The position numbers and the translations under genes are program-made. From a virus: a stretch of DNA of 40,739 bases. The notes beneath the pieces are model-generated. The model ran no database searches. It was not told where the DNA came from and was given only the letters and a program-made list of their open reading frames with translations. This document shows positions 1,291 to 31,660 of this stretch, piece by piece (positions within the stretch are counted from its first letter, which is position 1; each line of letters opens with the position of its first letter). The stretch spans positions 1 through 40,739 of IMG/VR virus record IMGVR_UViG_3300037493_001560. One strand, written 5' to 3'.

Positions 1291-4200
1291 ATGGCAAAAA
1301 ACATGCTTTATGATTTTGAAGCTAATGGACGTATTTATACATTTGAAGGTCCAGAAGGGCTTGACCCAACTGCGTTTTCTTCAGCATTACAGCAACAAAT
1401 CGCAATTGATAACGCACCAAAAACAGGTGGTATGGGTGAAGCCTTTAAAGGTACGGCTAAACGCATGCTATCTTCTGGTAGAACCGCACTTGAGTCTGTA
1501 ATTGACCCTGATAAAGCGGCAGTTGCTGGGCTTGAACGTCAAAAAGCCATTACGGAATTACCCGGTGGTAGCTTAGCTGAAGTTCAACGTATCTACGAGG
1601 AACAAGGCATATTACCTGCTGCATGGGAAGGCATTAAACAAGCACCGGCGGTTATCTCTGGACAAATACCTCAACTAGGTGGAATGTGGGCCGCAGGAAC
1701 TGCCGCTGCCGCTGTAACCCCTCCAGTACTACCAGTTGTTGGACCATTCGCTAAGCCTATTGCAGGTGTATTAGGTGGTCTAGCATCATTAGCTATCCCA
1801 CAAACCGGTACGAATATCGAGCGTCAAGCTCAAGTACAACAAGAAGCTGGGCTACCAGTAGATGTTAATATGTCAAAAGCAGTCCCTGCAGCAATAGGTT
1901 CAGCGGCATTAGACCAAGTTGCATTGTTAGCGGGTGGGCTAGGTAAAGTATTGGGCATTGGTGTTAAAGAACTTGGCACTGCAGCGGCGGAGAGAATCGC
2001 TAAAGAATCATTGGGGTACGCGGCTGCTAAAGGCGTTGGTAAGACAGCCTTAGCCGAAATGCCGACCGAAGTATCTCAACAAATGCTTGAACGCGCACAA
2101 GCTGGCTTACCATTAACTACACCAGACGCAATACAAGAATACGCTGACGCGGCATTCCAAGCAGGGTTAATGTCACCACTAGGCGGGTTAGGTGGAGTAA
2201 GTTCACGCAGTCAAGCCAAAGGCCAAGTAGCAGCAGCACAAGCACTTAAAGACCAAGAAGCGGCTGATAAAGCCTATGCAATAGAACAAGCTAAAGGGTA
2301 TAGAGACCAAGCGCGTGAAGACCGTGCAGGCTCACGGGCCGTTCAAGAAGAGATTGCGAGACAAGCTACCGAGACTAAACAGCAGGCAGTGGATGTGCTA
2401 CAACAAGTAGCTGCTAAGAAACAAGCTGCAGCAGCTATCCCCCCGATTAATGACTTAATGCAAACAAAAGAAGGTGCATCGCAACTTCTATCAGACAAGG
2501 CATTGTTTGAACAGCACTTCCCCAAAACCCAATATACCGCAGACGATATCAAACAAATTAAAAACGATATCCGTGCTCGTCGCAACACATTACCATCACA
2601 AGAGGCTATTGCACGGGCTACCACACAGGCTGAGCTAGAGCAAACATTTGCAGTTGACCCGAACACAATTACCCCTGAACTAATAGACATGTGGGGTATA
2701 ACTAAGGGCAACAAAAAAATACGAAATCAATTGCTAGCTGTAAGTGACTTAACTGTTCCTGATAACAAAGTTAAAGCAACTGAGATACTGGAAGACTACA
2801 AACAAAAAGCATCAGAAAAACAATTTAGCGCCGCTGAAACGGCTACGCAACATATTGCGAACCTAGAACCAGTGTCTGTGGAGGCCCCAAATGTTGGACT
2901 TAACAAGCGAACAAATAGAGCAAGCGTTCCAGTTCTTGATGAACGGGGACAAGTATCCCCCGCTGGAATTGCAGGAGTTGAGCCAGCTACACTGGGCGAT
3001 GTTGGAGACAGCACTGGACTTCTTACTGATGGAACAGAGCAGCAGCCAGCTGCATTAGCGGAAGCGCCAGTAGTAGAAGCACCAGTAGTAGAAGAATCAC
3101 CTGCGGCAGTGCAGGCGCGTATCCAAGCCCGTATTCTTGAGAAACGTCAGGCAGAAGAAGCGGCACGTGCAGAAGAAAAAGCAGCTAACTTAGAAGCAGT
3201 GCGGGCAGAACAAAAAGTAGCTAGGGGTAAAATAATTGCCCCAACAGCCGCCCCAGAAATAGCGCCGGATATCCAACAAGATGTTGCCGAAACACAAGCT
3301 CGTGAGGCAGAGTTAAGCCCATTAGCTGACACTGAGTCAACACTAATTGAACCATACGCACCAACAGACGAGAATATCCTTGCGTCAGCGGCAGGCAAAA
3401 AGAAAGCGCGTAAACCAAAATACGCAATGCCAGAACTTATTGAGCCTAGTGATACTGCGGCATCTGTCGAAGCTATCCAAACGGAATTAAACACCCTATT
3501 TACTCCGCAACAACTCAAAGCGCGTCCACCTGTTGTCGTTAATACTGTTGAAGAGTTGCCTGCACATTTGCAATACGAAGCTGGGGAAGCCGATGCCGCT
3601 GCGTTTGTAGACCCAACTACTAAACAAGAATACTACGTTGCTAGTAAGATACCTAGCAATGACATTCGCGGTAAAATCCAGCATGAACGTGGTGCGCACG
3701 TTGGGCTAACCAAGCTAATCGGTAAAGACAGAGTTAATGCGCTTGCTAACCGTGTGCTTACATGGGCTACCGAAGTTGGTGGTAAAAAGATAGAGCATGT
3801 CATTGCTAGAGAGGCGCATGAGAAAGCCCTCATGTCAGAGGAAGAAGAAGGGTCTGAACGCTACAACCAAGAAGTGATTGCGTACTTTACAGAGATTGCA
3901 GTTAACCGCTATGGTATTGACCCACTTAAAGCGCAGCCTAAAGAGTTTGCAAAAGTTGCTGGTTGGTTGAAAGAACTATGGAACGGCATACTAGCTACGA
4001 TTAAAAAACTGCATTACGACCCAAGCAAACTAACTGCTAAAGAAATCGTAGACCTTGTGTACGGCGCAGCACGTATTGCAAACAAAGCAGAACCAAGCGC
4101 GGTAGGTGTGCAGGCTGAAGCGACACCAGCATTATCGGACAATGATTTAACAATACTAGTCGGGTTATTGCAATCTCCCACCCCACGTGAATCAAAAGAA

Positions 4201-7200
4201 TCTACGGGGCCTGAAACTAGCACTAAGATACAGTCATCATCAGCTTCTAGTATGTTGCATGACCTAGGGTTCAAAAATGACCCTGTTAAACGGGCGTTTA
4301 TAAATCAGTTTTACAATGAAATTAAACAATTCGGATATACCGCTAAAGCAGTTACAAGGTTTATTGATAGTGTTGGGACTATGGGATTTCTTGTACCTAC
4401 CGCAAACGTATCTGAAGAACGTATATTAAGTCAACTTCCAGAAAAAACATTAGTCAATGTAGTCAATGCAGATTATGCAACGCGTGATATTTGGGAAAAC
4501 CCTAAACAAGCAGCGGAGCAAGCATCAGCCAGAGTTAATAGCGTTCGTAACGACAATTACAGGCGTACAACTCGAAGTATGTACCATATGCAATTTGATT
4601 ACTATCATTTTAGCCAAGAAGAATTTCAAATGGCTGAATCATTAATCGCCTTTTTAACCAGTAAATATAGTATGGTTGGCGATGCAATAAAAGAAATGAC
4701 TGATAAGAATGAGTATCTACCTGTAAGTGAGTTATCTGAAGAGTTTGTTACTCATTTTATGCATCTACTAGAACTAGGAAACTCACCAAAGTATTCTTAT
4801 GCCGAAGCGTACAAACAAACAATTTTGGCACCAAGAGATGGGATTATTGAAGCTGCATTAGGGCCAAATAAAACTGGGTGGATGCATTTCTCAGGGGTAG
4901 ATGATGCCGATAGATTAACTATGGTTGCTTCAGATACCGGCACTACTGCACAATCCCCGTGGTGTATTGGGAACTCATCGCAGAGCTTTGCTAAATCCTA
5001 TTTAGAAAAAGGTGACTTTTACCTATATATTGACCGTGGAAATTCAATAGTTTCTGCGCGTTTTGAAAATGATAACCCTTACTACCTTGCAGAATGGTCG
5101 GGATTAGGGGTGGGGATTAATCAAAAGGTACCTAAAGAACATACAAAATACCTGTATGAACTAGACCGTGTTGTGGGGCGCCCAATTGATATTAGTAGAT
5201 ACGAACAAAAATCCGACGCATCAGTAACTACTGTAGAAGATGCAAAAATTAACGACGCTGGTGAAAAAATTAAAATGGGGATGTCTAACCCAAAAGATTT
5301 TAGGGCGTTGCTTGAGGAGTATGCTCAGGCTCCATACGATTCCGAAATACGTAAATTACTAGACAGTCGAAGTAGAGATATTATATTTGACGTATTAGGG
5401 GTTTCTAAAGCATTTAAACAAACTTTTGAAGTTTGGAAAACGGAATTAAAAACCGCTAATAGTGAGCCAACTATTTATGAAATAATCCCGCAAATAACTG
5501 ACAAGTACAAAAATGTTTCGGAGGCAGCTGGGCATGTGGTAGCCATACCAGTTGAAGTCAGGAACATTGTAGGGTTACCAAAAGAACTGTATCAAAAACT
5601 AACTAAATTAAAACAAGAAGTTCTTAATGCTCCGGACATATATACAGGTAAAGCCGATGAGGTAAATAGCCTTTCAGAAATAGTTTTCTTTGCAACAGTT
5701 GACTCTGTAGAATTTCGTGGTTCAAATTTAAATAAATTAATTTCAAGTCTTCATCGAGACTATGATGAAGAAGTGGTATTTAAAAAACCGTTTGAAGAAT
5801 GGTACAACAGTTTGCCAACGTCAAGTCAAATGGGGCTTGTTGATTTAGATGTTCCCGCACACAAAACGTCTGCGGAAGTTTTTGATAGTGGGACTGGAGG
5901 GGTATCGGTTAAAGTTAGTCCCTATAAACTTTTTGAAGAATTTTTGCCGGGTAAATTTTCTTTTTATGTTTACGAAGACCGTGTAAAAGAACTTAAAGCA
6001 AATAAAGTAAAATCCGTAGCAGATAAGGCAGCAGACGATGCAGAGATTAGGGGGGCATTTGTCAAACAAGGTATTCAGCCATCTGCTGCGCCAAAAACCG
6101 CGTTAAAACGCCCCGATGGGACTGAGATTAAATTCAAGCAGCAAGAGAAAGAAACCCTATGGGAAAACTTAGCGGATGTATTCAATGGCTCTAGCACTCC
6201 TTGGCGTTCACTCATGGATATGCTTGGCAATAAGATTGTTACTGGTCGATACACAGTAGAGCGTAAAGCTATTGATGCTGGGTTATCAGCAACTGATGCT
6301 AAAACACAAGGTAAGATTCGTGCTGACCTTATCGGGCTACAAGCCACAAACGCTATGTCACTTGCGCAAGCAGGGTTGTTCTACGGTAAATTAGTGCTAC
6401 GTAAGAGCGGGATTATTCGTGCTGAAAATGGTAAGGTCAACATGATTGACCTAGGCAACGAGTGGCACACGCTTTTGGAAAAGGCTACCAAAGATTTAGG
6501 CAGTGCCGACCGTGCATACGATATGCTTTCAGCCGGTTGGTATGGTCCGCGTTATGAAGACTTAGCTAAACACAATGCTAACACTGCGCCTAAAAACCGC
6601 GTTGATATTAGTGATTGGACTGATTCCGATAAACAAACAAGTGCAGAAGCATGGAGAAGGTACGGTCCGGAACTAACTAAACTGCGTGATATGCGTAACG
6701 AAATGCGGGGTTCAGTGCTTGATTTGATGGTGCAGAGTGGCTTATACACCCGTGACGTTGCTAAAGAATATTTAGACCGCATGGACTACGTGCCGTTGTA
6801 CCGCATACAGGAAAAAGACTTGTTGGATAAGCAAGGGCGTCCGCTACGCGTAAGCACAGGGTTGTTGGGTGTGGGTAGAGAGTTTCACCTTAAGGGGTCT
6901 AGTAAAACAGCGAATGACCCGCTACAAAACTACATTGCTAACATGTCATGGATGATGCAACGCGCCATTAAAAACAACGCTGCCATACATACTGCGGACA
7001 TGCTCGATGCACTTGGTCAGGGATACTGGTCTAAAAACAAAGTACCGTCAGGCAAAAAGCAATCTATGTATGTTGCGGGGATATTTAAAGATGGGGTTGA
7101 AAAAGACTTTGTGATGTACGACCCCAACGACATGGCGGCATTCTCTGCATCCCCAGTTATTTCGGGATTGGTATGGGATTTAATGCGCTATCCAGTTGCT

Positions 7201-8703
7201 GGGCTACGTCATGGTATTACTATGATGCCTCAGTTTGTATTCAATCAGGCTATGGAAGACCCAGTACGCGCGGCATTAGTGTCAGGTAATAAAGCAGGTA
7301 TTGCACGAAACGTAGCGGATACATGGAAATCTATTGCTGATAACCAGTTTAAATCAGAGCGTACACCTGATGCAGATATGCTTAACCGCTATGGGGTTAT
7401 CGGGCAAAAAGATATTCTTGATGCTAAAGACATTGAGGACATGTATCACGGTAATGATAAAAAAGGTTGGCGCAGTAAAATATATTTCTTTGAACGTATG
7501 GCACAAGGCAGTGATTTAGGTGCTCGTGAGTCTATCTATAAGAACGCAATGAAAGAACTTACCGCTGAAGGCTATGACAAAGACACGGCAGAAGACTTAG
7601 CATCTATTCGTTCACAGCAGTATATGCCTTACCAGCAAGTTGGTATGTCTAAATCTCTTGCTTACCTACGTCGTATGATGCCGTTCGTTAACCCACCTAT
7701 TCAAGGTCTAGCACGTGATATTGCGGCTATGCGTGGTCGGTTGACTGGGGTATCTAAAGCCGATGGTAAAAAGATGTTTGCATTTACACTTACTAAGTAT
7801 GCAGTATTTACCGCAATGTACGCGGCGTTTAGCAGTGGTGATGATGATTACGAGAATAAAACTGACGACCAAAAAGACAATAACTTCTATCTAGGTGGCG
7901 TACGTATCGCAGTACCTCAAGAATTACGTCCATTAAAAGTAGCTATTGAACGTGGTACTAGGTATTGGATAATGAATGAACCAAATGCTGATGTGAATAG
8001 CGCGGCAATCGCGGGTACTGTTATACGTAAGTCATGGGAAATAATCGCAGGATTAGCCGTACCTATCCCAACAGCAGCTCGCCCATTGCTTGAAAACCTG
8101 ACCAACTACGATTTTTATTCTGCACGTCCAGTAGTAGGTATCAGCCAGCAGGGTAAGGCCCCAATGTATCAGTTCACTGACACTACTTCTGAACTCGCTA
8201 AAGTAGTAGGCGAGACGCTTAATTTATCACCAATCCAAATTGACCACATACTTCGCGGATACTTTGGGTATATGGGGCAAACAGTATCGCAATTCATAAA
8301 CCTATTAGATAGTGATAGGCCGTCGTTACGTATGCAGGACTTACCTTTTGTTGGTGGGTTTGTTCAAGCGGAATATGGTACCGGCCCTAAAAATGAGCTA
8401 TACGAGTTAATTAACAAATCAGCTGAAGCCAAGACCACACTGAAAGCAATCCAACAAGAAGGTAATCGTGAGAAAGCGATGAAGTGGGCTAAAGACCATA
8501 GGGGGTCAATCGGACTGGCTCCGGCGGTAAATGCGTTGCATACTCAAGTAACCAATATTCGTAAGAATAAAGCTAAGATAATGGACTCAAAATTATCCCC
8601 CACCGAAAAGAGAGCTAGGCTGGATGCCCTCGAGAAAGCAGAACTACGTGCATTGACTGGGGTGCATAAGTTACATCAACGGATGGTTGAGTTGGATGCA
8701 TAA
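1291..8703 (+). CDS. Giant polyvalent virion protein (ejected internal protein candidate) with zincin motif
   Basis: 2470 residues; ATG 1291 follows AAGGG. The first 40 residues resemble the short beta module that often opens phage polyvalent or internal virion proteins. Residues about 110-240 are hydrophobic and Ala/Gly-rich, and 310-380 and 600-660 are Gln/Ala/Glu-rich helices. H798-E799-x3-H803 (HERGAH), followed by E861/E868 in an EVIAYFTE context, looks like a zincin-type metallopeptidase domain. Residues about 950-1590 are visibly more AT-rich and contain a W1224-CIG and GDFYLY segment. The C-terminal third (about 1620-2350) resembles large polyvalent protein-associated domains, most like LPD38, with a YLRRMMPFVNPP segment near 2124. 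Polyvalent proteins are thought to be packaged and delivered with DNA; that role here is inferred. No catalytic motif of N4-type virion RNA polymerase was convincing. It is the last late gene before the terminator. Confidence 0.8.
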   Translation: MAKNMLYDFEANGRIYTFEGPEGLDPTAFSSALQQQIAIDNAPKTGGMGEAFKGTAKRMLSSGRTALESVIDPDKAAVAGLERQKAITELPGGSLAEVQRIYEEQGILPAAWEGIKQAPAVISGQIPQLGGMWAAGTAAAAVTPPVLPVVGPFAKPIAGVLGGLASLAIPQTGTNIERQAQVQQEAGLPVDVNMSKAVPAAIGSAALDQVALLAGGLGKVLGIGVKELGTAAAERIAKESLGYAAAKGVGKTALAEMPTEVSQQMLERAQAGLPLTTPDAIQEYADAAFQAGLMSPLGGLGGVSSRSQAKGQVAAAQALKDQEAADKAYAIEQAKGYRDQAREDRAGSRAVQEEIARQATETKQQAVDVLQQVAAKKQAAAAIPPINDLMQTKEGASQLLSDKALFEQHFPKTQYTADDIKQIKNDIRARRNTLPSQEAIARATTQAELEQTFAVDPNTITPELIDMWGITKGNKKIRNQLLAVSDLTVPDNKVKATEILEDYKQKASEKQFSAAETATQHIANLEPVSVEAPNVGLNKRTNRASVPVLDERGQVSPAGIAGVEPATLGDVGDSTGLLTDGTEQQPAALAEAPVVEAPVVEESPAAVQARIQARILEKRQAEEAARAEEKAANLEAVRAEQKVARGKIIAPTAAPEIAPDIQQDVAETQAREAELSPLADTESTLIEPYAPTDENILASAAGKKKARKPKYAMPELIEPSDTAASVEAIQTELNTLFTPQQLKARPPVVVNTVEELPAHLQYEAGEADAAAFVDPTTKQEYYVASKIPSNDIRGKIQHERGAHVGLTKLIGKDRVNALANRVLTWATEVGGKKIEHVIAREAHEKALMSEEEEGSERYNQEVIAYFTEIAVNRYGIDPLKAQPKEFAKVAGWLKELWNGILATIKKLHYDPSKLTAKEIVDLVYGAARIANKAEPSAVGVQAEATPALSDNDLTILVGLLQSPTPRESKESTGPETSTKIQSSSASSMLHDLGFKNDPVKRAFINQFYNEIKQFGYTAKAVTRFIDSVGTMGFLVPTANVSEERILSQLPEKTLVNVVNADYATRDIWENPKQAAEQASARVNSVRNDNYRRTTRSMYHMQFDYYHFSQEEFQMAESLIAFLTSKYSMVGDAIKEMTDKNEYLPVSELSEEFVTHFMHLLELGNSPKYSYAEAYKQTILAPRDGIIEAALGPNKTGWMHFSGVDDADRLTMVASDTGTTAQSPWCIGNSSQSFAKSYLEKGDFYLYIDRGNSIVSARFENDNPYYLAEWSGLGVGINQKVPKEHTKYLYELDRVVGRPIDISRYEQKSDASVTTVEDAKINDAGEKIKMGMSNPKDFRALLEEYAQAPYDSEIRKLLDSRSRDIIFDVLGVSKAFKQTFEVWKTELKTANSEPTIYEIIPQITDKYKNVSEAAGHVVAIPVEVRNIVGLPKELYQKLTKLKQEVLNAPDIYTGKADEVNSLSEIVFFATVDSVEFRGSNLNKLISSLHRDYDEEVVFKKPFEEWYNSLPTSSQMGLVDLDVPAHKTSAEVFDSGTGGVSVKVSPYKLFEEFLPGKFSFYVYEDRVKELKANKVKSVADKAADDAEIRGAFVKQGIQPSAAPKTALKRPDGTEIKFKQQEKETLWENLADVFNGSSTPWRSLMDMLGNKIVTGRYTVERKAIDAGLSATDAKTQGKIRADLIGLQATNAMSLAQAGLFYGKLVLRKSGIIRAENGKVNMIDLGNEWHTLLEKATKDLGSADRAYDMLSAGWYGPRYEDLAKHNANTAPKNRVDISDWTDSDKQTSAEAWRRYGPELTKLRDMRNEMRGSVLDLMVQSGLYTRDVAKEYLDRMDYVPLYRIQEKDLLDKQGRPLRVSTGLLGVGREFHLKGSSKTANDPLQNYIANMSWMMQRAIKNNAAIHTADMLDALGQGYWSKNKVPSGKKQSMYVAGIFKDGVEKDFVMYDPNDMAAFSASPVISGLVWDLMRYPVAGLRHGITMMPQFVFNQAMEDPVRAALVSGNKAGIARNVADTWKSIADNQFKSERTPDADMLNRYGVIGQKDILDAKDIEDMYHGNDKKGWRSKIYFFERMAQGSDLGARESIYKNAMKELTAEGYDKDTAEDLASIRSQQYMPYQQVGMSKSLAYLRRMMPFVNPPIQGLARDIAAMRGRLTGVSKADGKKMFAFTLTKYAVFTAMYAAFSSGDDDYENKTDDQKDNNFYLGGVRIAVPQELRPLKVAIERGTRYWIMNEPNADVNSAAIAGTVIRKSWEIIAGLAVPIPTAARPLLENLTNYDFYSARPVVGISQQGKAPMYQFTDTTSELAKVVGETLNLSPIQIDHILRGYFGYMGQTVSQFINLLDSDRPSLRMQDLPFVGGFVQAEYGTGPKNELYELINKSAEAKTTLKAIQQEGNREKAMKWAKDHRGSIGLAPAVNALHTQVTNIRKNKAKIMDSKLSPTEKRARLDALEKAELRALTGVHKLHQRMVELDA

Positions 8704-26249: not shown

Positions 26250-26370
26250 AATGTGTTACTCCTAACCATGATTTAACGGTATGTGTCCGCTTGTGTATAA
26301 GTCTTGCTATGTTCTTATACGGAACACCCTCGCACTTTAATTTCAAAAACCTACTCGGGTCGATAGTCAT
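26227..26370 (-). CDS. Small HTH-like protein (47 aa)
   Basis: 47 residues starting MTIDPSRFLKLKCEG. The segment VPYKNIARLIHKRTHTVKSW reads like a helix-turn-helix of the kind that chooses a recognition helix after an 'IA..I' helix. It is basic. The ATG overlaps the preceding stop by ATGA (26367-26370), with GGGAGGC upstream. DNA-binding is inferred. Confidence 0.58.
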   Translation of the reverse strand: MTIDPSRFLKLKCEGVPYKNIARLIHKRTHTVKSWLGVTHYERRIYK

Positions 26371-26591
26371 ACTGCCTCCCTAATTGCTTGTAGTGCCTTA
26401 TCAGTTAAGCGATAGGTAGTTCGTGCATATGTTGCAGTCCCTTGTTGTAAATACTTATCATCTGTGTATTTACTTAACACAAAGAACTGAAGCATGTCGG
26501 CATCGTCTAGTTCACCGAACGTTACATACTCTTGCCCAAACATCAATGCCCACATGCTTAGCCCATCAAGGGCTTTTTTAGGTATCGTCAT
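26367..26591 (-). CDS. Small winged-helix-like protein
   Basis: 74 residues. A Leu-rich helix (MWALMFGQ), then a segment ending TTYRLTDKALQAIREAV that resembles the wing and last helix of small winged-helix proteins. Its ATG shares one base with the stop of the VWA-metallopeptidase gene, so it belongs to that cistron and may serve it. Function inferred weakly. Confidence 0.6.
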   Translation of the reverse strand: MTIPKKALDGLSMWALMFGQEYVTFGELDDADMLQFFVLSKYTDDKYLQQGTATYARTTYRLTDKALQAIREAV

Positions 26592-27814
26592 TAGAAGTCC
26601 CCCTCCACATCAATACGCACTGTCCTGCCGTGCGGTGCTACTACGTCCGTAGTCATTATCCATAGTGATGGGATATCGAACACAGGGAAACTATCCACAT
26701 AGCCATCGCTAATCATAAGCAAGCACTCGTGGTTCATAGTCTTGTTAGCGGTTAGCCAGTCGGCAACACACTGTGGGCTAGTGCCACCCCCACCCTTAGC
26801 GCGTAGCACATTGTCGATATTGTCATACTGACCTTGCTCGAAAGACTGCACACTACACACCTCGTTATCCCACCAAATCACATCAAGCCCTGCAGGGTTA
26901 ATCTCTACGCATAACTTCTTAACCTCACCCATGCTACGCGCTATGATGTCGCCACCGATACTACCCGAGGCGTCAATCCCCACTGCAAGTCGTCCGCATG
27001 TTGTTGATACTGCGCTAGGGAAGTAACCGACATGGAACATGCGTCTGTTAATCTTAGACCAACTGCTCTCGTCGCGCCCTGCCATGACTTGCTTGAGGAA
27101 CTCTGCCATCTCTTTCTTGTAGTCCACCTTGCCGTCGAGCATGCCGTCGAATAGTCGTGATTGATTGCCGTCCATCTTGCCTGCCAATGACTTACCTTGA
27201 CGGATAGCAATCTCGATATCTTTCTCTAGGCTAGCTTTCTCGTCATCGGATAGGTCGCCACCCTCCCAGTCATGCTCGTCAGTGCCACCCGATTTAGGGT
27301 AGCCCTCGGTAATCTCGTTACCGTTATTATCTTTAGGCTTATCACCTTGACCACCGCCACCATCACCGCCATCGCCACCCTCATCGTCGCCTTGTTCCTT
27401 ACCCTCGAGGTCTTTGAATATCGCGGTAACTGTCCAACCATAATACTTAGGATTGTATAGCCCACCCTTAATCATCTTGATAAAACCCTTACGCGCATCT
27501 TGCTTGATAAGCTCACCGTTAATCCAGTAATCACACGCGGCATTAGCGCGTTGCCCATCTAAGGTATGCATAGCTTTGTATACATACATGTGCCGTGCCA
27601 TCTTGTGCATGTTCTCATGCAAGATAAGAAAGCGTAGCTCGGGGTCGGGCAAGTCATTGCAGAACTCTGCGCCATACCACACATTCTTACCATCAGTGCA
27701 TGCTGTCGGGGTGGCATCAACTTTCCATGTGCCGAAGCACAGAACACCACTCATTGCTACCCAGTCGGGGTTACCCATTATGGATATGTATTGCTTTTTG
27801 ATTTTCTTAACCAT
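26591..27814 (-). CDS. VWA-like metallopeptidase-type protein (DUF2201 type)
   Basis: 407 residues. An N-terminal zincin-like domain contains H66-E-N-M-H70 (HExxH) and a downstream ANAACDYWING helix. A Gly/Asp-rich linker (about 145-185) leads to a C-terminal VWA domain with a complete MIDAS start, D281-A-S283-G-S285. This architecture is known from proteins encoded beside MoxR AAA+ ATPases, and a MoxR gene lies 1 kb upstream here. MoxR/VWA pairs act as chaperone-like machines that remodel or activate target complexes; the phage target is unknown. AAGGAG precedes ATG 27814, and a copy of the dispersed palindrome lies 18 bases further upstream. Confidence 0.87.
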   Translation of the reverse strand: MVKKIKKQYISIMGNPDWVAMSGVLCFGTWKVDATPTACTDGKNVWYGAEFCNDLPDPELRFLILHENMHKMARHMYVYKAMHTLDGQRANAACDYWINGELIKQDARKGFIKMIKGGLYNPKYYGWTVTAIFKDLEGKEQGDDEGGDGGDGGGGQGDKPKDNNGNEITEGYPKSGGTDEHDWEGGDLSDDEKASLEKDIEIAIRQGKSLAGKMDGNQSRLFDGMLDGKVDYKKEMAEFLKQVMAGRDESSWSKINRRMFHVGYFPSAVSTTCGRLAVGIDASGSIGGDIIARSMGEVKKLCVEINPAGLDVIWWDNEVCSVQSFEQGQYDNIDNVLRAKGGGGTSPQCVADWLTANKTMNHECLLMISDGYVDSFPVFDIPSLWIMTTDVVAPHGRTVRIDVEGDF

Positions 27815-27832
27815 GATATATCTCCTTAGTAA

Positions 27833-27850
27833 TCCTCTTATATAAGAGGA
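27833..27850. repeat. Dispersed palindrome, copy 1
   Basis: TCCTCTTATATAAGAGGA, a perfect 18-bp palindrome in the 55-base gap before the VWA-metallopeptidase gene. It shares the 14-bp core CTCTTATATAAGAG with four other exact copies. Confidence 0.85.
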
Positions 27851-27869
27851 AGTTTATATTAACTACTTA

Positions 27870-28730
27870 CTACCAACCCAACTTGTCGTGCAATGTATCA
27901 ACGCTAGCCTTTACCTTATTACGCAGACCATCAGAACTCTTGAGGTCGTCAGTCGTAACACCCATCAGTGCCTCCTCTAGTTTCTGTCTAGCCCAGTCAA
28001 GGTCGGGGTCGTTGGTTACATTCATTACCTTGAGCATTTCGCATAGCTCTACTGCGTTATCTAAGACGCTGTCGTATATCTTTTTCTTACCGCCATCGTC
28101 ATTGTCCGCATAGCGTTCGCTGATATGCTTAGTAACTTTATACAATCTATCCCATAGGTCGCCCATTGCCTGTGCTGTGCGTTCCTCATACACTCGCGCA
28201 TACTCTTTGCTTAGCTCATCTGCAATGTCATGACCTACATCTACTCGGAAATCACCGCGTTCAGGTAACGGCACGAAACAGAACTTGAAGTTGAACCTGT
28301 CCAAGATAGTGTGGGCATCGGGATACTCACTGCGGTCGAACATAGTCCCCATGCGAAACGCTTGCGCTGATACCAAGCTCGGATAGATTACCGCGAAGTC
28401 ATTGGCTAACTGGCTCATCTCTCCAGCCTTGGTGTTTAGCCAGTCCTTTACTGGTATGAAGTTACGGATATCACACAGACGCTGACCGCCATCATTCCAC
28501 GGCAATGTCTTAGCGTAGAACTCCACGCGAGTGTTGGCTACCCACTTCTGTATCTTTTCCAACTGCTCGACGCCTGCGAACAATGACTTGTTGAAACGCC
28601 CTGCTTGGTCGTCCGCACCTTTGGCTGTCGTTACTTCTTTAGAAACTTTCTTATCTAGTTTGCGAAAGCTAGGCACACTGATGTTTAGCTCGCATAGTAT
28701 TGCTTGATTGCTTAAGTTGATTTTGTCCAT
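27870..28730 (-). CDS. MoxR/VWA-module partner protein (DUF3150-like)
   Basis: 286 residues, mostly helical and soluble. AGGAG lies 8 bases before ATG 28730. An N-terminal helical part (MDKINLSNQAILCELNISVP) is followed by a middle domain with FNFKFCFVPLPERGDF (near 145-160) and long C-terminal helices. Length, helical content and location between a MoxR ATPase and a VWA protein resemble DUF3150 proteins of such clusters; I recall this as an association and could not test it. Likely an adaptor or substrate of the ATPase. It is bracketed by palindrome copies on both sides. Confidence 0.72.
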   Translation of the reverse strand: MDKINLSNQAILCELNISVPSFRKLDKKVSKEVTTAKGADDQAGRFNKSLFAGVEQLEKIQKWVANTRVEFYAKTLPWNDGGQRLCDIRNFIPVKDWLNTKAGEMSQLANDFAVIYPSLVSAQAFRMGTMFDRSEYPDAHTILDRFNFKFCFVPLPERGDFRVDVGHDIADELSKEYARVYEERTAQAMGDLWDRLYKVTKHISERYADNDDGGKKKIYDSVLDNAVELCEMLKVMNVTNDPDLDWARQKLEEALMGVTTDDLKSSDGLRNKVKASVDTLHDKLGW

Positions 28731-28769
28731 CTCGTTCTCCTGTTATTTGATTGACACTGGGTCTTGAAA

Positions 28770-28787
28770 TCCTCTTATATAAGAGGA
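28770..28787. repeat. Dispersed palindrome, copy 2
   Basis: TCCTCTTATATAAGAGGA, identical to copy 1 over 18 bases. It lies between the MoxR stop and the start of the 286-residue protein gene. Confidence 0.85.
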
Positions 28788-28795
28788 AATCCCCA

Positions 28796-29866
28796 TTAGA
28801 TAAACTCTTTAGTGAATGATGTAACCCAGTCGCGCATTGCTTGACTACGCATAGCGATGGTCGGCTTGCTCTTGAATATCATGCGTCCTGTTACGGCTTG
28901 TATCTCCGCCTCAAGCCTGCACATGTAAGTAGTCGTAGCATCTGCGTTGTCATTGTCTAGTCCCGAAGCTAGGCGAGTAGCTAACAACAACTGACTAGCT
29001 AGGCTGTCTGGTACACGCGCTTGGTCGGGTGTCTTATATATAGATGACCGCGTAGGTAGGCTGTCTGCTAGCTCTACTGTTGCCCATAATTCACCAGTAG
29101 CAGGTGCGCCTATCGCACCACATATATGCGCCATTGCTTGCGGTCTAGTTAGCTTGCCTGCCTCCATCATGTTGAGTGTGTTACTGGCAAACCAAAAGCT
29201 ACGATTAGAACAAAACGCGCCTGTGTTGCTGTTAGGATTGAACACATACTTATTGGTCTTGCGTTCCTCCTCCGTCATGTCCACATAGCTAGCGCACACC
29301 TCGGGGTTCTCACCAATGAAATACAGTAGCGTTCCGTTCATACCTCGCGCAGTCCCGAACTCAACCACATCAGTAGCAGGGGGCTTGCTCACATGATTGA
29401 CATGCACACGATTATTCAAGAGTGCTTGGAATGTATCGCCCACACCATCGGTCGTTAGGTTACTGGTAGCAAATACTATAGAACCCTTTGGAATTGGTTT
29501 GTCTGACACCGTGCGTTCTAGCAAGAACCTAGTAATCATCGGCTTGGTAACGCCCGACATTTTGCCTATCTCGTCCACCATGTATAACTGTGGCTTGTCG
29601 CTGTCCAAGTGCCAACGCTGATGGTATGCGTTATGTGTTACACCATCTACCACGCTAGGCATATAGAAGTCGGGGAAGTCTAGCAAGGGTGCGTCTAGAT
29701 ACACGCACTGGTCATCACCCCAACCAAGTTTGGCTAGTATCTCGTGGCGGATTGAACTCTTACCAATGCCTGGCTCGCCCAGTAAAATTGTTGTCGTTAC
29801 ATCACCTGTTGCCGCAATGATTGAAGCCGCATCGGCTAGTGTTATTACATTATTGATACCATTCAT
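28796..29866 (-). CDS. MoxR-family AAA+ ATPase
   Basis: 356 residues. Walker A is GEPGIGKS (30-37), Walker B LYMVDE (94-99), and a sensor I VFATSN (131-136) follows; the core ends near residue 220, followed by a helical lid and a C-terminal extension. It belongs to the MoxR/CbbQ type that works with VWA-domain partners. The ATG overlaps the preceding small gene by ATGA (29863-29866), with AAAGGAG upstream. It should form a hexameric ring that remodels a target via the 286-residue and VWA proteins. Confidence 0.9.
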   Translation of the reverse strand: MNGINNVITLADAASIIAATGDVTTTILLGEPGIGKSSIRHEILAKLGWGDDQCVYLDAPLLDFPDFYMPSVVDGVTHNAYHQRWHLDSDKPQLYMVDEIGKMSGVTKPMITRFLLERTVSDKPIPKGSIVFATSNLTTDGVGDTFQALLNNRVHVNHVSKPPATDVVEFGTARGMNGTLLYFIGENPEVCASYVDMTEEERKTNKYVFNPNSNTGAFCSNRSFWFASNTLNMMEAGKLTRPQAMAHICGAIGAPATGELWATVELADSLPTRSSIYKTPDQARVPDSLASQLLLATRLASGLDNDNADATTTYMCRLEAEIQAVTGRMIFKSKPTIAMRSQAMRDWVTSFTKEFI

Positions 29867-30123
29867 TTTGTTTCTCCTTTGGTTGAATTAACTAATACTT
29901 GCTCTTCCTCTACTTCTACTGCATCAATTTCAAAGTTATTGCCATCGATTATGTCGTCAAGCCCATAAGAATGGTCGTGTGCAATTTCCCACGCCTCGTC
30001 ATCATCGTGCGCTTGGATTTTTACCCTGTAAGTTACTTCCTCTCGCGCATACACATAATAGGTTTTTAATCCTACTAACTTATCTACTGCTGATTGCACT
30101 ACTTCATCGGTTGTATCAGTCAT
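29863..30123 (-). CDS. Small paralogous protein B
   Basis: 86 residues. Residues 12-72 align with the upstream 73-residue protein: both have AVDKL-x-G, then a Y-x-V strand, a DD-x-x-x-A-x-x-I/IA segment, and an acidic end (DHSYGLDDI versus DHIYTWEDL). The pattern resembles small phage alpha/beta domains of the DpnD/PcfM-like kind. GGAG precedes ATG 30123. Coupled by ATGA to the MoxR gene, suggesting a joint role. Confidence 0.7.
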   Translation of the reverse strand: MTDTTDEVVQSAVDKLVGLKTYYVYAREEVTYRVKIQAHDDDEAWEIAHDHSYGLDDIIDGNNFEIDAVEVEEEQVLVNSTKGETK

Positions 30124-30337
30124 TCTCTATCTCCTCTATGTGGTCAATCTCTACATCACCTTGATAGCTCAAGTCCTCCCATGTGTATATGTGGTCTTGT
30201 GCTATCTGCTCGGCTCTTTCTCGGTCATCGGTCTTAACTACTATGTTGTAATAGCCTGTCATCCGCACCGCAACGGTATAGGCTCTGATACCCATAAGTT
30301 TGTCTACCGCCTGTTCTGTTTTGTCTGTATTTTCCAT
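30116..30337 (-). CDS. Small paralogous protein A, first gene of MoxR operon
   Basis: 73 residues, MENTDKTEQAVDKLMGIRAYTV at the start. Tandem paralogue of the next gene, which it overlaps by 8 bases. GAAAGGA lies 7 bases before ATG 30337. It is the first open frame after the long leader that starts near 30965. Function unknown. Confidence 0.68.
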   Translation of the reverse strand: MENTDKTEQAVDKLMGIRAYTVAVRMTGYYNIVVKTDDRERAEQIAQDHIYTWEDLSYQGDVEIDHIEEIEND

Positions 30338-30359
30338 TGCTATTCCTTTCGTTAAAAAG

Positions 30360-30373
30360 CTCTTATATAAGAG
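30360..30373. repeat. Dispersed palindrome, copy 3
   Basis: CTCTTATATAAGAG, 14-bp perfect core, 22 bases upstream of the first gene of the MoxR operon. In leftward transcripts it is followed by CTTTTTAA. Confidence 0.82.
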
Positions 30374-30384
30374 GATTGATTAAG

Positions 30385-30401: not shown

Positions 30402-30787
30402 TTCGCCTATACAAGGCTCGTCAGTTAATCTTATTGTGTTTAGGCTCAAGCGTTATGAAGTGAGTTGGCTATTACACCTCGTCCACCTCTGCTCGTATTC
30501 ATGCCATGCACATTCCCATTTGGTATGCCACCCGTCAGTCGCACCACTTATCAGATACTTAATACTGGTCGTAACTTTTAACTCTTACTTGTTTTACCGC
30601 CTACACAGTAGCGGAACTTTATTATTACAAGATGTTGAACTACTATTCTCTGCGGAGTGCAGGGTTTCGTCGTAGCTTTTGCGTCATGCTTTGCTATCGT
30701 TGCTTGCTTACACAATTGCAACTTCGTGCACTTTTCTGTTTCTCGTATGTTCGTGCCAGTATGCGTATCTAACGCATGGATTAAAAA

Positions 30788-30803
30788 CCTCTTATATAAG
30801 AGG
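30788..30803. repeat. Dispersed palindrome, copy 4
   Basis: CCTCTTATATAAGAGG, a 16-bp perfect palindrome followed by TTTTTAA in the leftward transcript, 24 bases downstream of the boxA-like element. Could act as a weak terminator or operator. Confidence 0.82.
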
Positions 30804-30827
30804 AATTTGGGGGGCATACTCACCAAA

Positions 30828-31534: not shown

Positions 31535-31603
31535 ATTTTTCGTGTCGATTGGCTCTGCGCTTGCGTTATACAGCCTAGTAAGTATCCACTAACATCGAAA
31601 AAG

Positions 31604-31617
31604 CTCTTATATAAGAG
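31604..31617. repeat. Dispersed palindrome, copy 5
   Basis: CTCTTATATAAGAG perfect 14-bp core, flanked by AAAAAG on the left and GATTT on the right, between the GTTCC array and the long inverted repeat. Confidence 0.82.
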
Positions 31618-31660
31618 GATTTCGTGCGCCATACGCGCATGCTAAAAACCTAGCCCACAG

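Follow-up and report, generated by a model that had tools for sequence, protein, structure and literature searches.

Several molecular machines pair an AAA+ motor of the MoxR type with a protein carrying a von Willebrand factor A (VWA) domain. In the rubisco activase CbbQO, the VWA protein binds the target through its metal ion-dependent adhesion site (MIDAS) and the AAA+ ring is the motor (PMC4660213), and in NorQD the VWA protein inserts a finger into the ring (PMC13036017). The virus record IMGVR_UViG_3300037493_001560 of IMG/VR, analysed here over 40,739 nucleotides (positions 1 to 40,739; hereafter the window), encodes a comparable putative motor and VWA-MIDAS protein, but CbbQO and NorQD are described, in the accessible portions of these sources, as two-component systems with known targets and without mention of DUF3150, the family related to a third protein encoded between the two genes of the window. 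We propose, with about even confidence, that the products of this three-gene cassette work together as a single AAA+ remodelling machine, portable among mobile genetic elements, which would act on the DNA-handling complexes of the element or on host proteins bound to its DNA.

Related genes have already been published from other mobile elements, including CobST in tailed viruses (PMC8651126), AAA/vWA in haloviruses (PMC7911831), MoxR/VWA in pCAR1, R478, Rts1, SXT and R391 (PMC2642839), and a MoxR AAA+/metallopeptidase-vWA pair in group 2.2 jumbo phages (Iyer et al. 2021, PMC7824862). The jumbo-phage pair is like the window in that a MoxR motor adjoins a VWA protein with an N-terminal metallopeptidase domain; it is unlike the window in being a pair only, with no third gene named in the accessible text, and in having a proposed role in virion assembly, while the closest relatives of the window include contigs of 64-65 kb. 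The gp24 and gp25 genes of phage N4, candidate members of these two families, are named as middle genes in PMC4193335. In the 5.39 million papers searched, outside which most subscription journals lie, the name DUF3150 was not found, and MoxR, von Willebrand and conjugative plasmid occurred together only in PMC2642839. Relative to an earlier reading of the same DNA from its letters and open reading frames (ORFs), here called the sequence-only reading, two points are new: the partner of the motor is related to DUF3150, and plasmids carry the cassette as well.

The three cassette proteins

The 40.7-kb record codes for a terminase, a portal, a family A polymerase, an SNF2-type helicase and a PD-(D/E)XK nuclease. 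The cassette lies on its minus strand in the order motor, DUF3150 relative and zincin-VWA protein:

28796..29866, minus strand: MoxR-type AAA+ ATPase (label by orthologues), 356 amino acids; PHROG 1297 ATPase (1e-35), invariant motifs, midasin (8e-21)
27870..28730, minus strand: DUF3150-related middle subunit, 286 amino acids; DUF3150 homology, structure model, viral structure match
26591..27814, minus strand: zincin (HExxH) and VWA protein, DUF2201_N plus DUF2201, 407 amino acids; Pfam and motifs

The three ORFs are intact, the genes are real, and they stand in the order previously claimed. In ten comparisons with relatives 64-73% identical in DNA, nonsynonymous divergence was 0.17-0.30 and synonymous divergence was 1.2-2.4 or, in three of them, saturated, and all three genes look to be under purifying selection.

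The motor retains both Walker A (GEPGIGKS) and Walker B (DE), and its positions P32, G35, K36, D98, N136, R153 and R222 are invariant in 11/11 aligned proteins; from AAA+ architecture, we take these residues to serve in Walker A, Walker B, sensor 1 and the arginine finger. The best PDB match of the motor profile is the AAA module of midasin (8e-21), and no chain named MoxR, RavA, CbbQ or NorQ is found among the 58 PDB sequences listed for it. The window motor falls below the Pfam AAA_5 cut-off (12.6 bits vs 22), as does that of the close relative L013, while the orthologues of L019, L017, L025 and L027 pass. The intact Walker motifs thus sustain the AAA+ part of the earlier MoxR claim, whereas the MoxR label itself is indirect and comes from these orthologues.

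The middle protein has no Pfam match at E up to 1, and a tblastn search of 50,697 phage records with the same limit also found nothing; the latter result alone would suggest an orphan protein; a more central relative, L016, was needed as the query. Of the five phage relatives scanned with DUF3150 (PF11348), four score below its gathering cut-off of 24.9 bits (L013 22.1, L011 19.6, L016 19.3 and L014 17.4 bits) and the fifth, from phage Pag-Yong1, gives no match; the middle proteins of L025, L027, L030 and L097 give none at E 0.01, and that of G661 (L100) passes at 33.4 bits. The window protein is 30% identical to the G661 protein over 262 amino acids (E 9e-37), matches plasmid proteins encoded between motor and VWA genes over about its full length (29%, E 5e-37; 28%, E 6e-30) and is 24% identical (1.6e-19) to the Pag-Yong1 protein, which is identical to a MinM2 protein annotated as DUF3150. 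In one phage contig (L016, 1798-2683), the DUF3150 gene is split into two overlapping frames, by a frameshift or an assembly error.

An AlphaFold2 model of the middle protein built from a 49-sequence alignment reached a predicted local distance difference test score (pLDDT) of 86.9 and a predicted template modelling score of 0.73, while the single-sequence model was useless (pLDDT 37.9). The former predicts an N-terminal alpha/beta part of strands and a helix, a long helix and a C-terminal helical bundle, so the partner, called helical in the sequence-only reading, is not purely helical by this model. The best viral structure match to the model is annotated as DUF3150 (E 3.7e-18), but with a template modelling score of 0.51 and a root mean square deviation of 18. 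No PDB chain matches the model at E 0.001, VIA-align rows of up to Z 9.7, mainly over residues 178-286, look like common helical-bundle matches, and the DUF3150 profile itself finds only weak matches in PDB, the best (0.0033) to a chain named Junction 34. Given the sub-threshold scores, the homology to plasmid, Pag-Yong1 and G661 proteins and the viral structure match, the partner is, by homology, a divergent full-length DUF3150 relative that falls below Pfam's own cut-off.

The 407-amino-acid protein passes the Pfam models DUF2201_N (74.1 bits vs a cut-off of 23.2) and DUF2201, the VWA part (49.2 vs 26.4 bits), has the HExxH motif HENMH, and shares MIDAS residues D281, S283, S285, T345 and D370 that are invariant in 12/12 aligned proteins; both models and the intact motifs confirm the joining of a zincin motif to a VWA MIDAS domain that had been read from the sequence. 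Pattern searches covered 67 distinct zincin-VWA proteins with a length of 330 amino acids or more; DxSxS is present in all 67 and HExxH in 59, the latter motif being lost in eight homologues (among them L027, L035, L056 and L061-L063). Judging from these counts, MIDAS adaptor function is likely the constant feature, the zinc site appears dispensable in some lineages, and peptidase activity would not be needed in all homologues. PHROG 1314 and many listed phage annotations label this family "HNH endonuclease", which Pfam and the motifs contradict.

Distribution of the cassette among phages, plasmids and chromosomes

The loci were scanned with profiles derived from the initial alignments. The viral set consists of 17 distinct contigs from 22 loci (five contigs were met twice), and in 15 of the 17 the motor, DUF3150 and zincin-VWA genes follow in the same order and on the same strand, some with small genes between them. 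The exceptions are L010, with fewer than 200 bases upstream, and L016, where the VWA gene lies ahead of the DUF3150 gene and the profile search found no motor match in the 59.8-kb contig. One gene is cut by the contig end in L005, L009 and L012 (VWA) and in L014 and L096 (MoxR). The phrog_38 terminase profile matches 7 of 12 viral records, with no match in the contigs of L010, L014, L096, L097 and L098, so that the phage nature of these five rests on their IMG/VR classing.

The 51 genome loci L030-L080, mostly from Burkholderiales but also from one Acidobacteriota, one WWE3 and one Acetobacteraceae metagenome-assembled genome (MAG), form a biased set drawn with DUF3150 patterns from three plasmid cassettes, and within it a VWA gene lies no more than 3 kb downstream in 51/51 and a motor no more than 3 kb upstream in 48/51. 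The latter count comprises 46 loci found by script plus L058 and L059 by inspection, as was the motor of viral L098; L046 and L079 have fewer than 200 bases of upstream sequence, the motor match of L034 is 5 kb off, and the broken cassette copies of L076 and L078 were counted. Fifteen further DUF3150 loci (L081-L095) yielded neither MoxR nor zincin-VWA by profiles (0/15) and thus serve as an internal negative control. The distance matrices of the three proteins correlate (Mantel r 0.908, 0.946 and 0.957, each reached by 0 of 2000 permutations) across 27 non-redundant loci taken from 66 with all three proteins nearly complete, a correlation to which shared ancestry of the carrying elements contributes. 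The co-occurrence predicted by the sequence-only reading was found, the same gene order recurring in phages, plasmids and chromosomes, and this recurrence, together with the parallel divergence of the proteins, supports the view that the three genes form one functional unit. In alignment surveys, the only one of 398 Pseudomonadota genomes found to carry DUF3150 was the seed, and in the phylum to which a Desulfobacteraceae MAG belongs it was found in 11 of 247 genomes, again counting the seed; the family is therefore rare in sampled genomes. A DUF3150 tree with long branches gives three changes for the phage copies but is also compatible with one, so that these copies may or may not have a single origin.

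Of 43 matching plasmid records, four were inspected, all from Burkholderiales, and 4/4 have the motor-DUF3150-VWA order, with small genes intervening over 3.6 kb in the L025 plasmid; L025 and L026 were typed as conjugative, L027 and L028 as non-mobilizable. The Burkholderiales cassettes (L025-L028, L032-L078) consist of an ATP-binding protein, a DUF3150 relative and a VWA-like protein, of the same families and order as in the window, with a middle protein 28-29% identical to that of the window over about its full length (L025, L028), but they differ in their cellular or plasmid context, often beside transfer genes, and in the loss of HExxH in some.

Beyond these cassettes, a search of 72,556 plasmid records with the canonical DUF3150 of L126 gives matches in 1172 (in 299, a single place accounts for 80% or more of the query), and 984 of the 1172 are typed as conjugative; the same query matches one phage record. 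The gene order is AAA, a 301-amino-acid protein, bet, exo, DUF3150 and VWA in an IncC plasmid, AAA, WGR protein, DUF3150 and VWA in pGSUB1, and AAA, DUF3150 and VWA in pCAR1, with ssb and recT about 10 kb on; pCAR1 and the IncC plasmid carry AAA+ and VWA proteins other than the window's kind. ORF100-103 of pCAR1 (AAA+, DUF3150 and VWA in the window's order) lie within one transcribed operon (Miyakoshi et al. 2009, PMC2642839), and the accessible text of that paper reports these genes as conserved in R478, Rts1, SXT and R391 and proposes that they function in conjugative transfer, without containing the term ORF102. The pCAR1 set differs from the window in a motor with a CbbQ domain, a VWA protein annotated as NorD-like and a longer DUF3150 protein. 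In L081-L095, DUF3150 lies beside a different AAA protein (12/15) and often a DUF1257-like one (8/15), and L127 and L128 resemble these loci, with an SSB and a PD-(D/E)XK nuclease (L127) or a Rad52-like protein (L128) nearby. On reading, this neighbourhood also shows a UvrD-like helicase.

Locus L126 encodes a CbbQ-type AAA protein, a full DUF3150 (1.6e-101) and a CobT-like VWA protein with HExxH. Such a pairing would fit a metal chelatase of the CobS/CobT kind that raises cobalamin supply, a role already proposed for viral CobST, and viral AAA/VWA pairs are read as cobaltochelatase subunits in the accessible part of PMC8651126. For the window this explanation is very improbable: its motor has no match to CobS (TIGR01650) and its VWA protein none to the CobT models. 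The large subunit of such a chelatase is CobN, whereas the third subunit here is the 286-amino-acid DUF3150 relative.

The distribution of the cassette also bears on a role as a virion assembly chaperone, which was proposed for the jumbo-phage pair (PMC7824862) and concluded for p618/p892 of Acidianus two-tailed virus in tail development, where p618 interacts with virion proteins and with the VWA protein p892, according to the part of PMC4124505 available. The four complete phages closest to the window by terminase (49-53%), namely DSL-LC04, HTVC027P, 023Pt_psg01 and HTVC023P, have the terminase, the portal and three adjacent proteins in common with it and yet show no match to the three cassette profiles at E up to 10. 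Next by terminase (42%) come the cyanophage records Pag-Yong1, MinM2 and Pra-JY27, all three with one and the same DUF3150 sequence, the full cassette being seen in Pag-Yong1 and MinM2. Pag-Yong1 (a Planktothrix phage) and MinM2 (a Synechococcus phage) have related head genes and carry the motor, DUF3150 and VWA-like genes in the window's order, but differ in their 23-25% identity, in extra small genes between and in a genome that also encodes an Erf-type annealing protein and an exonuclease. Of the window genes tested, Pag-Yong1 has those for the head and the cassette but none for replication, G661 has replication genes and the cassette together with a distant terminase, and G660, where the phrog_38 search gave no terminase, has the cassette alone; the cassette thus moves independently of head and replication modules. 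A virion target specific to phages would agree with Pag-Yong1, where related head genes do accompany the cassette. As a general role, however, virion assembly is improbable, because the cassette occurs on plasmids, which have no virions, is missing from the four phages with the window's head genes, and occurs in G660. The presence of cassette relatives on conjugative plasmids suggests instead a role that benefits mobile DNA at large, and not the building of phage particles.

The same pattern could reflect anti-defence or host takeover, in which the machine would pull apart or cleave a host defence or transcription complex and would be needed by phages and plasmids on entry. Phages and plasmids, which have the cassette in common, meet the same defences, and its distribution among phages with the same head genes is that of an accessory. 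However, none of the three window proteins matches PADLOC at E 0.01, a library of defence rather than anti-defence proteins, and a word search of the main text of the 2024 leading-region survey (PMC11541004), as far as accessible, returned none of MoxR, AAA, VWA, ATPase or DUF; we consider this explanation unlikely, though it deserves more weight than virion assembly.

A putative remodelling machine

For the remodelling machine proposed at the outset, the mechanism is borrowed by analogy from CbbQO and NorQD. The MoxR-type protein would form a ring-shaped ATP motor, and the zincin-VWA protein would be its substrate adaptor, gripping an acidic side chain of the target via the MIDAS metal site and being worked by the motor. 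The DUF3150 relative may be a third subunit, either linking the motor to the adaptor or contributing to the choice of target. That target, rather than being the virion, could be a complex with which the element handles its DNA in recombination, replication, entry or transfer, or else a host protein bound to this DNA. We count bet and exo inside the IncC set, and ssb and recT about 10 kb from the pCAR1 set, in favour of a DNA-handling role.

Several points weigh against this proposal. The motor is a divergent AAA+ protein that takes its MoxR-type name indirectly, from orthologues; both the target and the membership of the three proteins in one complex are deduced from sequence; and the zincin motif could make the protein a protease, the end effector and not only an adaptor. 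In addition, the case for DNA transactions is one of association. In the window, 7-11 kb separate the cassette from the genes for the polymerase, nuclease and helicase, and the Burkholderiales cassette is often beside secretion or conjugation genes, not recombination genes.

A broader proposal, which we advance tentatively and somewhat below even confidence, is that DUF3150, as a third subunit, marks a class of AAA+ machines that has so far gone unrecognised. It would have been combined with three or more different motors, would travel as a unit among phages, conjugative plasmids and chromosomes, and would serve to remodel protein-DNA complexes at entry, recombination or replication of the element. 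The three combinations are a MoxR-type motor with a zincin-VWA protein (window and plasmids), a CbbQ/CobS-type motor with a CobT-like VWA protein (L126), and another AAA protein, often beside DUF1257 and without VWA (L081-L095). SXT/R391 were added to the carriers of DUF3150 on the strength of the accessible part of PMC2642839.

Neighbouring features and the wider meaning of the cassette

The gaps and flanks of the cassette contain the following features:

27833..27850, no strand: 18-bp perfect palindrome in the DUF3150-VWA gap; sequence scan
28770..28787, no strand: 18-bp perfect palindrome between the motor and DUF3150 genes, not present there in L004; sequence scan
29863..30123, minus strand: 86-amino-acid small protein, paralogue of its 73-amino-acid neighbour, overlapping the motor gene by 4 bases; accessory in appearance
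30116..30337, minus strand: 73-amino-acid small protein, paralogue of its 86-amino-acid neighbour, elsewhere in two close relatives; accessory in appearance
26367..26591, minus strand: 74-amino-acid protein overlapping the VWA stop codon; ORF list, Pfam, PHROGs and relatives

The palindrome, TCCTCTTATATAAGAGGA, stands in both cassette gaps, as the sequence-only reading had it, and near-copies at 30358-30375, 30787-30804 and 31602-31619 bring the number of sites to five within 3.8 kb (5 matches at no more than 3 mismatches vs 0.01 expected). The sites fall between larger ORFs, the last two overlapping short unassigned ones. The nine loci that have its exact core, among 130, come from the window and the three contigs nearest to it. 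Because L004, a relative 97-99% identical, lacks the palindrome in its motor-DUF3150 gap, it does not belong to the cassette as a constant component. In L002, L003 and L004 it is flanked by inserts of about 150-250 bases, as if it marked points of insertion or exchange.

The kinship of the two tandem small proteins holds (36% identity, E 2e-7 and 5e-8), but not their place as a fixed part, since two of the three contigs that are 97-99% identical have the 73-amino-acid paralogue at another place; relatives of both in L011-L013 are only 32-50% identical, and the pair looks accessory. The 74-amino-acid protein has no family match in Pfam or PHROGs, and a relative of it comes after VWA in five viral contigs. 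Profile scans with Pfam and PHROGs, unaccompanied by structure prediction, lent no support to the winged-helix/helix-turn-helix proteins that had been read behind the cassette. Early placement or expression is likewise unsupported, with promoter-like sites fewer than expected (10 vs 19.0); terminator-like sites number 14 vs 5.9 expected, two of them being the palindrome. Elsewhere in the window, a 2470-amino-acid ORF (1291-8703) matches only a C-terminal PHROG of unknown function and has stretches of 22-30% identity in Pag-Yong1, G001 and G004; a "large polyvalent protein" annotated in Pag-Yong1 may be its counterpart.

An anonymous phage partner protein is now linked to a family with matches in 1172/72,556 plasmid records, 984 of them typed as conjugative, and the distribution of the cassette supplies a discriminating argument against the published virion-assembly proposal as a general role. 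Additionally, pCAR1 in Pseudomonas putida KT2440, and MinM2 or Pag-Yong1 in their hosts, offer tractable systems for finding the target.

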